Source of the DNA: Nitrospirota bacterium
GTDB lineage: Bacteria > Nitrospirota > Thermodesulfovibrionia > Thermodesulfovibrionales > UBA1546
Assembly (NCBI GenBank): GCA_009773185.1
Contig: WPIF01000015.1
Location: 1-64,000 of the forward strand
DNA length: 64,000 nucleotides
Direction of reading: 5' to 3'
The notes under the pieces were generated by a model. It saw only the letters and a list, made by a program, of their open reading frames with translations. It searched no databases and was not told where the DNA came from. Both the position numbers and the translations under genes were made by a program. Below, in pieces: positions 57,374 to 64,000 of the stretch (its first letter is position 1; each line of letters starts with the position of its first letter).

Positions 57374-60082
57374 ATGAAGAAGGTTGTATGGGGCGGTGAA
57401 ACCATGAGGGTAAAAATTATTTGTTTACCGATAGTTATAGCTCTATCCACCATAATTTTTTTAAGCCTGTCAGAATTTGCAAGTGCTGCAACTGCCCCTG
57501 TTTCAACCCCACTGGGTTATAATACGCTGCAAGGATGCGCCCCTGCGCGAATTGCCACAGATAGCAGCGGAAAGATTTATGTTACAGATGCCAATACAGA
57601 GTCCGTAAGAGTCTTTTCTAACAACGGGGTTCCGCTTTCAAACATCAGAGCGAATAAACCGCTCGGCGTTGCTGTTGATTCGTCAGGGAAGATTTTTGTA
57701 GGAAGCGTATCAGAAGGAAGCGTTTCAGTTTTCAGCAGTGAAGGCAGTTTGCTTTATAAACTCGGCGCAGGGACAGGCGAGTTCACAATGCCGAGCGATA
57801 TAGCGATTAGCTCTTCGGGGACTGTGTATGTTACAGACAGCCTACAAAATAAGGTGAAGTCATATACAACAGCAGGCGCGCCATTGTCTTCCATTGCAGG
57901 GCTTAATTTCCCGACAGGAATAGCAGTGGATGATGCAGCCGGTGAGATATATGTTTCCGACCACAGCAGTGGTACGGTAAAGATATTCGGCATGGATGGA
58001 ATTTTAAAAAGGTATATAAAAGGCGGCAGCATGTTTGGAAGCGTATTTCTGAGGCCGCAAGGCCTTGCGCTCGACAGCACAAGGGTTTATATAGTTGACG
58101 CATATAACAGCACTGTTGCGGTATATGGCAAGGACGGTATCTTCCTTAAATACATGGGGAATTATGGAGAGGGCGCAGGGCAATTCAGAACTCCGCTGGA
58201 TGTTGTCATTGACAGGAGCAACAAGGTTTTTGTTACAAACCATAATAACAGCAGGATTGAGATGATCGGCATAGACAGTTATTCACAGCTCAACATTTCC
58301 CCTAACACAATCAATTTATCTGTTTTTGAAGACGGTTCGCCGATTACACAGACCCTAAATCTGACTTCAACCGGAAATGCAGCAGGCTGGGTTGCCTCTT
58401 CTTCCAATTCATGGGCGACTGCTTCTCCGGCTGCAGGCACAACTCCTTCGGATGTTTATATTACTGTTGATCCGGCAGGTTTGAGCGCAGGCAATTACAC
58501 AGCCCAGGTGATGTTCAGCACGTCTTCGGGAACAGAATCAGTTGTCCTTGTGAATCTCGAAGTAAAACCTCAGCCAAAGGCCTTATATGTTGCGCCGACA
58601 AATATAAGTTTCAAATATCAGATGGAATCGCCGAATTATCCATCAGGCAATGTCGCAATCACATCTTCCGGCGGAAGCCTTGCGTGGACAGCTTCCTCAA
58701 ACGCAGCCTGGATAAGTCCTGACAGGGCATCAGGGATAACGCCTGATAATATAAAACTAAGTATCAATAGCGCTGTTGGTGCGCTGGGCGCCGGAAATTA
58801 TGCCGCAAACTTAATAATTGATGGAGGCAGCGCCCAGGGCAGCCCTGCAAGCGTAAACGTGAGCTTAACAGTAATCAATGCAGGCACAGTCAAAGTAACA
58901 GCGAACATTAAAGAGGCGGGCTTTGACATAATCCCGACAGGAACCGGGACAAGCTACAGCGGCACAGGCACTGAATGGAGCTATGACGAAGTAACGCCCG
59001 GAGACTACACCATAACCTTCAAGCACATAAGCGGATATATAAAACCATACACAAGGACCTTCACCGTAAAAACAGGTAAGGAGACAGTTATAGACGGCAC
59101 ATACAGAGTAAAGGCAATAGCAACCCATATAATAGCAGGCTCAGGCGGGACCAAAGGCAAGACCGTAGAAGTGCTTACACTTGACGGCAAGGTGGTAACA
59201 ACATTTGAGCCGTTCAAAGCGCCTGAAAGCATAGGGGTCGCAGCCGGAGACCTTGACGGAAGCGGCACAGACAAGATAATAGTAACAGACCACAAAAAAG
59301 ACCTTAAAGTCTATTCATTCGAAGGTCTGGAACTGGCCTCGCTCAAAATGGAGGATTGGCATAAAAACGCGACGGCGGCAGCAGCAGACATAGACAACGA
59401 TGGAAAAGCAGATCTGATAGCAGGCGTAGAAAACGACAGGCACAGCGAAAAAGAACAAAGAAGAATAATAAAACACCTTGTTTATGAAGAAGGAAAGCTT
59501 ATAGACAAAGGCGAAATCTATGCAGAAGACAAAGAAGACGAATTTACAATAGCCCTTGGAGACATAAACGGAGACGGCAAGCAAGAACTCATAATAGCGG
59601 ACGAGGATGATATAAGGGCCTTTGAAATAAACCTTGAAGCGCAGGACAAACTCAAAGAGATATGGAAAGTCGAGGCAAAAGGCATATACGAAGACACGCC
59701 TGAGATAGCAACAGGCGATATTAATGATGACGGGATATACGAGATAGCCCTCGGCATCGAGACAGAGGACAAAGAAGGTGAAAATGATAAAAAAGGCAAA
59801 GAAGACGAAACCGGTATAATAAAGATACTTAAAGGCAACGGGGAAGACTACAAGCTCCGGATAGAGCCATACAATGACCTTGGATACGAAGGCGCGCCTT
59901 CAGTTGCGCTTGGAGACCTCGACAAAGACGGCTTAGATGAGATATTGGCAGGGGCAGGCAAAGATGAGAAGAACGAAGGCTTGATAAGGACATATGAAAG
60001 CGACGGCTCATTCACGAACACAACGATAAAGACAGGCCTGAGCAAGTTTGGCGTAAACATAGCCGTTGGAAGGTTCAAATAA
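57374..60082 (+). CDS. Secreted NHL / BACON / FG-GAP repeat protein
   Basis: 902 residues. A signal peptide ends at about residue 38 (SLSEFASA); an alternative start at 57404 gives a more standard 28-residue leader. Regions in order: NHL-type beta-propeller repeats (~55-300), two BACON-like Ig domains (~305-400 and ~405-500), a PEGA/carboxypeptidase-regulatory-like domain (~503-578), and FG-GAP/VCBS repeats (~585-900) with calcium-type loops (DLDGSGTD, DIDNDGKAD, DINGDGKQE, DINDDGIYE, DLDKDGLDE). It probably sits outside the cell or at its surface as a scaffold or adhesion protein. The next gene starts within its stop codon, tying it to the cytochromes. Confidence 0.8.
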   Translation: MKKVVWGGETMRVKIICLPIVIALSTIIFLSLSEFASAATAPVSTPLGYNTLQGCAPARIATDSSGKIYVTDANTESVRVFSNNGVPLSNIRANKPLGVAVDSSGKIFVGSVSEGSVSVFSSEGSLLYKLGAGTGEFTMPSDIAISSSGTVYVTDSLQNKVKSYTTAGAPLSSIAGLNFPTGIAVDDAAGEIYVSDHSSGTVKIFGMDGILKRYIKGGSMFGSVFLRPQGLALDSTRVYIVDAYNSTVAVYGKDGIFLKYMGNYGEGAGQFRTPLDVVIDRSNKVFVTNHNNSRIEMIGIDSYSQLNISPNTINLSVFEDGSPITQTLNLTSTGNAAGWVASSSNSWATASPAAGTTPSDVYITVDPAGLSAGNYTAQVMFSTSSGTESVVLVNLEVKPQPKALYVAPTNISFKYQMESPNYPSGNVAITSSGGSLAWTASSNAAWISPDRASGITPDNIKLSINSAVGALGAGNYAANLIIDGGSAQGSPASVNVSLTVINAGTVKVTANIKEAGFDIIPTGTGTSYSGTGTEWSYDEVTPGDYTITFKHISGYIKPYTRTFTVKTGKETVIDGTYRVKAIATHIIAGSGGTKGKTVEVLTLDGKVVTTFEPFKAPESIGVAAGDLDGSGTDKIIVTDHKKDLKVYSFEGLELASLKMEDWHKNATAAAADIDNDGKADLIAGVENDRHSEKEQRRIIKHLVYEEGKLIDKGEIYAEDKEDEFTIALGDINGDGKQELIIADEDDIRAFEINLEAQDKLKEIWKVEAKGIYEDTPEIATGDINDDGIYEIALGIETEDKEGENDKKGKEDETGIIKILKGNGEDYKLRIEPYNDLGYEGAPSVALGDLDKDGLDEILAGAGKDEKNEGLIRTYESDGSFTNTTIKTGLSKFGVNIAVGRFK

Positions 60083-60945
60083 TGGGCGGGACAATATTTA
60101 TGAAACGTTTGTTGATTGCAAGTCTTATATTACTTCTTGCATTTGGAATAACTCTTTATATAAAGGATCAAACCATTGCAGCAGACGCTCCCCACACAAC
60201 AACACAGAGTGTCTTCTGTAATAGCTGTCATTCAGTTCACAGGGCATGGGGCACAGGTCTTACAAAGAGCGCAACAAATGCAAATCTTTGTCTTAGTTGC
60301 CATGCGATTTCAGGAATTGCAAGCACAAAGCGGTTAGACGCAACAATGCTGGCCACGCCGGGCATATCAGGCACATCTCACAGATGGGATACCGCGATGC
60401 CTACTGCGCCTACAACTCCAACCAGCCAATATGGCTTAAAGGCAGCATCTGAGCTTCCAACCGGAGCTCTTAAAAGCAGACTGGGCGCCTATAACAATGT
60501 AATTACATGTTCTGTATGCCACAATCAGCATGGCCAGGCAAGCACGCCGTGGGATCCATATGCTCCGGCGTCAGGCAACGGCAGGCATTTTCAGCGTACA
60601 AGCAATGAGTTAAACCAGATGTGCGAAGAATGCCATGCATACAGGAAGGCGGCGACTTCAGGAACGGATGTAAGGACCTACGATGAGACTAAAAAGAGCC
60701 ATCCGGTTGTGAAGAACCTCACCAGCGATGTCAATGCAAACCAATTTGTCGGCGCAGCGCCGCTTGAAAGCGCGCTCTGGAATTATAGTCCGCAAACTAC
60801 TGCTCCAAGATACCACGAGGGTGGAGGCGGGGACACAAATAAAACCAATAATATAGTGCTTGATTCTTCAAGCAAGGTGAGGTGCCTGTCGTGTCATGGC
60901 ATTCATTATACTGATTCGAGTTCAGGGACTGTTGATGGACCATAA
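60082..60945 (+). CDS. Five-haem c-type cytochrome (doubled CXXCH type)
   Basis: 287 residues; the ATG at 60100 would give the more usual signal peptide (MKRLLIASLILLLAFG). Five CXXCH haem sites: CNSCH (46-50), CLSCH (70-74), CSVCH (142-146), CEECH (180-184) and CLSCH (267-271). CNSCHSVH and CSVCHNQH resemble the doubled CXXCH domain. It is exported to the periplasm or beyond. Its first ATG overlaps the stop of the NHL gene. It is followed 5 bp later by a much larger cytochrome. Confidence 0.88.
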   Translation: MGGTIFMKRLLIASLILLLAFGITLYIKDQTIAADAPHTTTQSVFCNSCHSVHRAWGTGLTKSATNANLCLSCHAISGIASTKRLDATMLATPGISGTSHRWDTAMPTAPTTPTSQYGLKAASELPTGALKSRLGAYNNVITCSVCHNQHGQASTPWDPYAPASGNGRHFQRTSNELNQMCEECHAYRKAATSGTDVRTYDETKKSHPVVKNLTSDVNANQFVGAAPLESALWNYSPQTTAPRYHEGGGGDTNKTNNIVLDSSSKVRCLSCHGIHYTDSSSGTVDGP

Positions 60946-60950
60946 ATAAT

Positions 60951-63900
60951 ATGGAGATTTTAAGATATTTTCTAAATATGGCATATAAAATTATGAGACA
61001 TATTTATAAGAAAAGTTCACGATTCACGGGAAAAATGGGAAGTGTCCCTATTTTTGCAATTTTTATTTTTGCCTGTGCGGTTCTCATAATGGGCCCGGCG
61101 GTCGGACAGGCGGATGCTGTATGCACAAGGGTTAACCCGACAGTTTCGATTTTCCCGAGCGTCCAGAATGTTCTGGCTGGAAACGCTGTGACTTATACTG
61201 TGAGTGTAATCAATAATGACAGCGGCGACACCTGTGGTTCGACAACCTTTACTCTCAGCAAGACAGATGCTCCTGTCACACCCAATGCAAACTTCACTGC
61301 AGCGTTGTCGCCTCTTTCGATAACTCTTAACGTGGGCGCTTCAGGCAAAGTTACGCTCACCCATACAGCAGCAGCCGGCGCAAGCATTGGAGCTACACAA
61401 CAGAGCTATGTTACGAGCGCGGCAGATGCGAACCACGCGGCAGTTAATAGCAGTACAGTTACAACCACTGTTATTGCAACATCAGGAGACGGTTATCTTC
61501 TCAAGAGAGGCAAGGAAGAGACATGTCATGGCTGCCACAAGACCAATAAGAACATGCCATCCCCCGGAGAGACCGGCTATGTCCAGGCGAACTGGGACAA
61601 TGCCATTAAGACGCACAGCGCTGAAATACTCGGTACATGTTCTAATACAACCTATAAAACCCGTACAGCGTGTTCGGCTAACGGTGGCACATGGACGCCC
61701 GGAAAATGGAATGCCTCGGGCGGGTGGGGTATTGCAGGCGGGAGATACGGCGAATTTGTCTGCACAACATGCCACACAGGCCATAGCACAACAAATATAT
61801 ATCTGATAAAAGAGACGATAACAACTCCTGATGGCTCTAATTTTGGGGGCAGCGTCACAAGCAGCGTTACAGTTAATTTCAGAGTTAAATCAGGGACTCC
61901 TGCCGTTCCGGGACCTCAAACAGCCGGTATTATGGGTGACGACTCTGTTACACATGCTGCATCGGCTTTTATATGCGAAGTCTGCCATACTTTTGATGGA
62001 GCTCAGACAACAGGCGTAAATAAGCACGCTTACACCATGACTTCGATAACTTCTCATTATAATGGGCAGGAATGTAATACATGTCATTCTCATAGCGGAG
62101 GATTTAAGGCGAGTTGTAATTCATGCCACGGCAACCCGCCGATATCGGCAGTCATTGGAGGTCCGTCAGGTCTTGCAACTCCGGCCACAGGCGCGACAAG
62201 TCCGTTAAGCCCCGGTGCTCATAACACACATGTAACCACAAGAGGCATGACATGTAATGTATGTCATACAGGCAATACAATGCCTACGGTAAGCAATACC
62301 ATTCAGATGGGTTTTGTTACTAACTCAACTACCTATCCCACTGTGTGGAGTAGTTCAACATCAGCGACAACAGGTGCGTTTGACGGCCATACGCCATTAA
62401 ATGCACCTTATACAGGATTTGTATCGAGCAGCATAGGGACAAATGTCACCACAAGCGGAAGCTATGCAAATACATGTTCCACTTTATACTGCCATGGCTC
62501 AACACTCACTGCCGGCACATTAACGAGTCCTTCATGGGTCGGCGGCTCATCTCAGGCTGCATGCGGCACGTGTCACGGAGGCGCAGGATATACTGTCGCA
62601 GCAACAACTCCTCCGACAACAGGAAAGCATATAACACATGCCGCTACAACAACCGGCAATCTTGGTCTGGCGTGCAACAAATGTCATAACTCCCCCTCCC
62701 CAAGCATGACGCATGTCAATGGCGTTGTTTCCTGGTCGTTGGATACAGCAGACTCAAGAATTGGAGCTTCTGCTACTTACAACGGCGCAGCAAGCGGCGG
62801 TTCAACTACACAGCTTGCGCCAACACCGTATGAAAGTTGCGCAACTCTCTATTGCCATTCAAACGGCAAGGTAGGCACCTCAGTAGGCGCATACACAACA
62901 CCGGTCTGGGATGGGGCGGATATAGGCTGTAACGGATGCCACGGGACATTAAATACAGCAGGCACCCCTGACTATGCAAACGAAGGAGCAGGCACAGTAG
63001 GAGCCAACAGCCACAGCAAACATACAGTGGCAGGGACAAGCACATGCGTATACTGCCACACAAATACAACAACAACAGGCACGACCATAACAGGCACAGT
63101 GCATATAGACAATACAAGAAACGTATTGGAAGGCGGCGGGAAGAGTTTCACATATACGCCACAGACCTGCACTAACATCAGCTGTCACGGCGGTTTCGGC
63201 ACTGCAGCCACATGGGGCGGCGCAGCTCTAACCTGCACAAGCTGTCATGGAAGGACTACGGCAGGAGGCGGCGATCTGGATGACTTTGCGGCAGGCGGCA
63301 ACATGGCCAAGGTTGACACAGATGAATGGGCTGCGCTGGGTCATGGCAGGCCGAATGCAAGCGGTAACTATCCCGGCACGAATCCCAATCCTCCGGCTAA
63401 CTTTGCCGGTTTGGCAGGCTCCGGGCAGGATCCATGCCTCTGGTGCCATGACGGGATTTCGGCGGATCACGGCAACTACACTACGAACCCATACAGGCTG
63501 AGGAACAATAATGCGCTCGGAAACGGCTGGAATGATGCATGTTTGTATTGCCATGACACGAACCAGACCACGGCGAGTTATAAGGCTGTGGCTACATTTA
63601 CCACCGGAATAAATCTTGCCAATGTCAAAAAGATAGATAAGTGGCATTATGGTTCAAACCACAGCGCAACAAGAAACGGCGGACAATTCTGCTGGGACTG
63701 CCATGACCCGCATGGTGACGGGACGACAGGTCCGATAAAGATGATACAGAAATACCCGACAAAGACGAATACGAACGCGACTTACGGCGTTCCGAGCGGA
63801 GCCAATGACATTGATGAAGCAGTGGCTATTGTCTTTACGAACAACAACTTAGCCACGGGCGCAAACGGCTTTGCCATGACAGCAGGCACCTTCAGGCAAG

Positions 63901-64000
63901 GCATATGTAACGCATGCCATACATACAGCGCAAGCGCGCCGACAGTGACGTACTACACAAGCACATCATCAACATCGCATAACTCAGGCACAGTCTGCAC
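60951..64000 (+). CDS. Giant multihaem cytochrome with CX4CH...CXXCH domains (runs off the window)
   Basis: An open frame from the ATG at 60951 to the right edge (1016 codons so far). N-terminal hydrophobic signal (PIFAIFIFACAVLIMG...GQADA), an Ig-like NEW3-type region to about residue 185, then haem sites. I count 15 CXXCH motifs (CHGCH, CTTCH, CEVCH, CNTCH, CNSCH, CNVCH, CGTCH, CNKCH, CNGCH, CVYCH, CTSCH, CLWCH, CLYCH, CWDCH, CNACH) and 3 CX4CH motifs (CSTLYCH, CATLYCH, CTNISCH). The CX4CH-then-CXXCH arrangement matches the Geobacter-type domain (TIGR01904). Likely an outer-surface cytochrome for extracellular electron transfer. Low complexity, Gly/Thr/Ala-rich linkers. The C-terminus lies outside the window. 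Confidence 0.88.
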   Translation, partial: MEILRYFLNMAYKIMRHIYKKSSRFTGKMGSVPIFAIFIFACAVLIMGPAVGQADAVCTRVNPTVSIFPSVQNVLAGNAVTYTVSVINNDSGDTCGSTTFTLSKTDAPVTPNANFTAALSPLSITLNVGASGKVTLTHTAAAGASIGATQQSYVTSAADANHAAVNSSTVTTTVIATSGDGYLLKRGKEETCHGCHKTNKNMPSPGETGYVQANWDNAIKTHSAEILGTCSNTTYKTRTACSANGGTWTPGKWNASGGWGIAGGRYGEFVCTTCHTGHSTTNIYLIKETITTPDGSNFGGSVTSSVTVNFRVKSGTPAVPGPQTAGIMGDDSVTHAASAFICEVCHTFDGAQTTGVNKHAYTMTSITSHYNGQECNTCHSHSGGFKASCNSCHGNPPISAVIGGPSGLATPATGATSPLSPGAHNTHVTTRGMTCNVCHTGNTMPTVSNTIQMGFVTNSTTYPTVWSSSTSATTGAFDGHTPLNAPYTGFVSSSIGTNVTTSGSYANTCSTLYCHGSTLTAGTLTSPSWVGGSSQAACGTCHGGAGYTVAATTPPTTGKHITHAATTTGNLGLACNKCHNSPSPSMTHVNGVVSWSLDTADSRIGASATYNGAASGGSTTQLAPTPYESCATLYCHSNGKVGTSVGAYTTPVWDGADIGCNGCHGTLNTAGTPDYANEGAGTVGANSHSKHTVAGTSTCVYCHTNTTTTGTTITGTVHIDNTRNVLEGGGKSFTYTPQTCTNISCHGGFGTAATWGGAALTCTSCHGRTTAGGGDLDDFAAGGNMAKVDTDEWAALGHGRPNASGNYPGTNPNPPANFAGLAGSGQDPCLWCHDGISADHGNYTTNPYRLRNNNALGNGWNDACLYCHDTNQTTASYKAVATFTTGINLANVKKIDKWHYGSNHSATRNGGQFCWDCHDPHGDGTTGPIKMIQKYPTKTNTNATYGVPSGANDIDEAVAIVFTNNNLATGANGFAMTAGTFRQGICNACHTYSASAPTVTYYTSTSSTSHNSGTVC

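Follow-up and report, generated by a model that had tools for sequence, protein, structure and literature searches.

The gene p1, which occupies positions 60951..64000 on the plus strand of a Nitrospirota contig and continues to a stop at 64511, encodes a giant CX4CH/CXXCH cytochrome that is probably a secreted, repeat-built c-type cytochrome with a chain of 22 bis-His haems, serving as the electron conduit of a conserved gene module and most likely located outside the cell. What points to a conduit is the combination of 22 haem-attachment sites, the matches to TIGR01904 and PF09698, an equal number of haem sites and conserved candidate ligands (17/17), the conserved CX4CH spacing, the duplication of the module and the co-occurrence of its scaffold with cytochromes of this family. 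The MtrA/MtrB-type and GSU2203/GSU2204-like pairs encoded in the same genome, the ResB and CcsB genes and a frame joining two of the module's cytochromes (locus L083) are consistent with it as well. Arguing against a conduit are the module having no recognised porin gene, p1 having no recognised lipobox or surface anchor, the low confidence of the AlphaFold model for the haem-bearing part and the fact that no solved structure of the family was found.

The p1 gene, its haem sites and its family

The window (the whole stretch of 64,000 nucleotides analysed here) belongs to contig C5, part of a genome of 2.79 Mb, and because this contig continues to 72451 the gene could be closed beyond the window edge. 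An earlier note had described the frame as running from 60951 to 64000 without a stop, cut by the edge, with 15 CXXCH and 3 CX4CH motifs. The frame is indeed open over this span and an exact recount gives the same numbers. The contig extension that the note had called for revealed no stop just past 64000 and added three CXXCH sites (residues 1016, 1038 and 1101) and a fourth CX4CH site (residue 1170), so that the complete protein of 1186 amino acids contains 22 sites by motif count, 18 CXXCH and 4 CX4CH. Shuffles of the p1 composition gave on average 0.07 CX2CH and 0.08 CX4CH motifs, with a maximum of 2 of either in 1000. The description "very large" is a relative one: with 22 haems the protein of 1186 residues stands at the small end of its family, in which as many as about 60 occur; a survey of members with 15 or more sites found up to 60-62 sites, and their lengths reach 2300-3900 amino acids.

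The CX4CH sites at residues 509 (CSTLYCH, 62475..62495), 630 (CATLYCH, 62838..62858) and 740 (CTNISCH, 63168..63188), all on the plus strand, are each followed by CXXCH, as the note had it, at residues 538, 660 and 762 respectively, and this repeated succession is the layout of the CX4CH family. All 20 aligned sequences keep the spacing at residue 630 and 23 of 24 do so at residue 740, while 5 of 20 have CX3CH at residue 509; given this conservation, the three look like true attachment sites. In the 24-sequence alignment used to examine haem ligands, residues 271-990 of p1 contain 17 haem sites and 17 non-motif His residues conserved at 73% or above, a count that covers this region and leaves outside it five sites where too few sequences aligned or the alignment had ended. 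There are thus enough conserved His residues for one distal ligand per haem in this region, and the number of candidates would fit, as expected, every haem there being bis-His.

Profile searches bore out the relation to Geobacter-type CX4CH/CXXCH cytochromes, with scores above the cut-off for both TIGR01904 (83.9 bits, cut-off 27, four stretches matched) and PF09698 (38.7 bits, cut-off 21.7). Judged by its sequence, p1 is a member of the already known CxxxxCH/CxxCH cytochrome family (TIGR01904 / PF09698) and a relative, in a Nitrospirota host, of large surface cytochromes of Geobacter that are presumed to transfer electrons beyond the cell. It also passes the cut-offs of PF14522, PF14537 and PF22113 (MtrC/MtrF domains II/IV), whereas the doubled-CXXCH domains that the note had also raised fall short (TIGR01905, 13.6 against a cut-off of 25.2; PF09699, 17.7 against 20.6). 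Within the order Thermodesulfovibrionales, PF09698 is carried by 32 of 149 genomes. A tree of residues 694-1016 groups p1 with three Nitrospirota rows (96/93), its nearest named homologues there being Nitrospirota; a recent transfer of p1 from Geobacter left no sign in this tree.

The first 56 residues (60951..61118, plus strand) were read by eye from the sequence as a Sec signal peptide, a hydrophobic stretch being followed by an ADA-V boundary; the start codon is unsettled among M1, M15 and M29, because none of them has a clear ribosome-binding site. Residues 56-176 (61116..61478, plus strand) form a haem-free N-terminal beta domain in the AlphaFold model, the only part in which pLDDT rises to about 74, and "Ig-like" is our reading of its predicted strand pattern. 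The haem-bearing part defined by motif count extends from residue 192 onward (61524..64000 in the window, plus strand). The protein is of low complexity, Thr, Ser, Ala and Gly making up 47%, and neither a lipobox nor a cell-surface anchor was recognised on it. AlphaFold modelling of residues 55-1016 with 24 sequences gave pLDDT 39 and pTM 0.29, values that make it unusable for haem distances. Searching solved structures with the single p1 sequence returned one match (E 0.2), and with the profile the matches were to multihaem proteins outside p1's family and covered them in part, no chain named OmcS, OmcE or OmcZ being among them.

The gene module and its copies

Five genes make up the module: those for a 5-haem cytochrome, an NHL/Ig/FG-GAP scaffold, the giant CX4CH cytochrome, a 12-haem cytochrome and a TmcD/TolB-like propeller. 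The scaffold (57374..60082, plus strand) is a haem-free protein of 902 amino acids with domain matches to an NHL propeller, BACON/Ig domains and FG-GAP repeats; its AlphaFold model has pLDDT 83 and its best Foldseek matches are NHL propellers (E 1e-18). The 5-haem c-type cytochrome (60082..60945, plus strand, 287 amino acids), identified by motif count, matches the doubled-CXXCH family PF09699 with 35.3 bits (cut-off 20.6). Downstream of p1 and beyond the window lie the cytochrome of 12 sites, 1349 amino acids long and with an fn3 domain (C5:64583-68632), and the TolB/TmcD-like propeller (C5:68779-70281), whose score of 95 bits against the TmcD model is far below the cut-off of 440. Read by eye, the surroundings include a surface-sugar region at 26174-57153 of the window, with glycosyltransferase, radical SAM, NeuB/NeuC-like and CMP-sugar-like genes, and a small IS200/IS605 TnpA-like transposase frame near the contig end (C5:71857-72285, or L002:11857-12285).

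The module, which the note had not brought up, is present twice in the genome, on contigs C5 and C14. The C14 copy has a similar gene order, with a small cytochrome first, and is followed by ResB-like and CcsB-like system II genes (G000:C14:48000-57194; L084:4191-6184). Both genes also follow the module at loci L043, L052 and L060, and ResB alone at L045 and L061; this linkage was judged from individually read loci only, an order-wide survey of ResB being filled by housekeeping copies. The module recurs in other members of the Thermodesulfovibrionales and in a Geobacter MAG (L045); comparable gene sets were found at L043, L052, L053 and L078, with partial sets elsewhere, the Geobacterales distribution coming from one scan of genome contigs. 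Genome G001, of the same genus, encodes a scaffold with 80% identity on a contig that breaks off there, and a p1 gene may lie beyond the break. Of the 26 genomes with the scaffold, 22 also carry CX4CH cytochromes (PF09698), compared with 32 of all 149, a difference (p = 6e-15) that takes no account of kinship among the 149. The genes for scaffold and cytochrome are adjacent in most of the loci read. No porin was recognised, without a barrel predictor, among the genes read around both copies and in the relatives' modules. We found no description of this module in the literature searched, which covered few subscription journals, and its novelty is thus unproven.

Several frames from other loci deserve mention. 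In one relative, a frame of 558 amino acids and 8 haems (L083:7336-9012) matches the 5-haem cytochrome as well as the haem-bearing N-terminal part of p1 and is possibly a natural fusion of two such parts. Another, of 2518 amino acids with 44 CXXCH and 16 CX4CH (L081:4165-11721), adjoins an NHL scaffold, and an Anaeromyxobacter MAG has a frame of 3864 amino acids with 52 CXXCH, 7 CX4CH and 3 CX3CH (L055:5528-17122). In JdFR-86 (G022, contig C12, L075) a 13-haem cytochrome is encoded close to the genes for the scaffold and the 5-haem protein, and the intervening genes resemble, in size and order only, those beside a 13-haem frame of p1's own genome (L067).

Outside the module, this genome encodes a decahaem DmsE/MtrA-type protein paired with an MtrB/PioB porin (L068:7243-10302; TIGR03508 258.7, cut-off 192.2; PF11854 266.6, cut-off 23), the porin scoring 220.9 against the NCBIfam MtrB model TIGR03509, below its cut-off of 240.05. 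A second porin-cytochrome pair resembles GSU2203/GSU2204 (L072:5258-8274), and there are many other multihaem frames. The genome also carries dsrA, and the host is probably a sulfur-respiring Nitrospirota.

Known systems and alternative roles for p1

Long, repeat-rich cytochromes with 10-85 haems and abundant Thr, Ser, Ala and Gly have been proposed as molecular wires in the PCC3 systems (PMC5566968, PMC10734462), and p1 can be likened to them, by description, in length, repeats and composition. Because this composition is that of the extracellular PCC3 cytochromes (PMC5566968), it argues for p1 being extracellular too. PCC3 clusters, however, have their own porin and inner-membrane protein, neither of which was recognised in the p1 module, where a propeller scaffold is found instead. 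PCC3 also has a periplasmic partner of 21-27 haems (PMC10734462), a precedent for long periplasmic cytochromes, and p1 could, as has been proposed for that partner, be a periplasmic electron reservoir or a wire spanning the periplasm, with which its plain Sec-type signal, the lack of a recognised surface anchor and the porin-less module would agree. We regard this as unlikely, since the Ig-like N-terminal domain and the NHL/FG-GAP partner resemble surface architecture, the composition is that of the extracellular proteins and relatives of 2300-3900 amino acids are long for a periplasm. The Uet complex of Tenderiales likewise clusters multihaem cytochromes with NHL-repeat proteins, as the p1 module does, but consists of an 11-haem cytochrome, triheme cytochromes, a PPIase and a porin, with no CX4CH giant mentioned (PMC10734462). 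OetABI (PMC10553843), through which sulfate reducers exchange electrons, is likewise encoded by a gene cluster with several multihaem cytochromes and is comparable to the module of this dsrA-bearing genome, although it has an outer-membrane barrel and none was recognised in the module.

The Geobacter CxxxxCH/CxxCH cytochromes (TIGR01904 / PF09698) probably include OmcG/OmcH-type proteins. In G. sulfurreducens, OmcG and OmcH were reportedly required for OmcB expression (a 2006 paper), and by analogy the module could mainly support or regulate other outer-membrane cytochromes rather than conduct electrons to a final acceptor. The Geobacterales relatives of p1, with 23 CXXCH and 3 CX4CH, come near to an OmcH homologue for which PMC9961858 gives 24/0/3. 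This likeness is one of haem counts, and 22 haem sites with conserved candidate ligands point to electron conduction, which makes such a role improbable. The Geomonas proteins in question align to residues 268-1183 of p1 at 35% identity, one of them scoring above the TIGR01904 cut-off (77.7 bits) as p1 does; a Geomonas homologue of p1 lies at L044:9131-12520. Compared with the Geobacter CX4CH cytochromes, p1 differs in its Nitrospirota host, its N-terminal Ig-like domain and its 18+4 sites, and the Geomonas scaffold is more distant in sequence and does not always adjoin the giant gene. A multihaem reductase in which one haem is catalytic and singly ligated would agree with weak matches of the profile to cytochrome nitrite reductases that form ammonia (6v0a, E 4e-6); these matches are partial and may be motif-driven, the motif count found no CX2CK site in p1, and conserved distal His residues equal the haems in residues 271-990, with no obvious open site, so that we consider a reductase very improbable.

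Proposed electron path and its meaning

If p1 is the conduit of the module, the 5-haem cytochrome would give electrons to its haem chain or receive them from it, the scaffold would anchor the cytochromes at the surface or keep them together, and the 12-haem protein may be a second carrier, branching or terminal. The outer membrane would be crossed through one of the genome's porin-cytochrome pairs encoded outside the module. The extracellular location of p1, the formation of a complex, the direction of flow and the substrate are what we infer from these genes. System II (CcsB/ResB), for which the C14 copy has its own ResB and CcsB, may attach the haems, those at CX4CH sites included, and the link between these genes and the CX4CH sites is a putative one. 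It is conceivable, though we offer it tentatively and with some doubt, that the module together with ResB-CcsB constitutes a distinct, porin-less extracellular electron-transfer system common to Nitrospirota and Geobacterales, with a haem-attachment machinery of its own that is adapted to CX4CH.

These results place large Geobacter-type CX4CH cytochromes in a conserved, duplicated module of a dsrA-bearing Nitrospirota and name the genes that go with them, some of which may form a dedicated haem-attachment system; these partners could be deleted or co-purified in the Geobacterales relatives.
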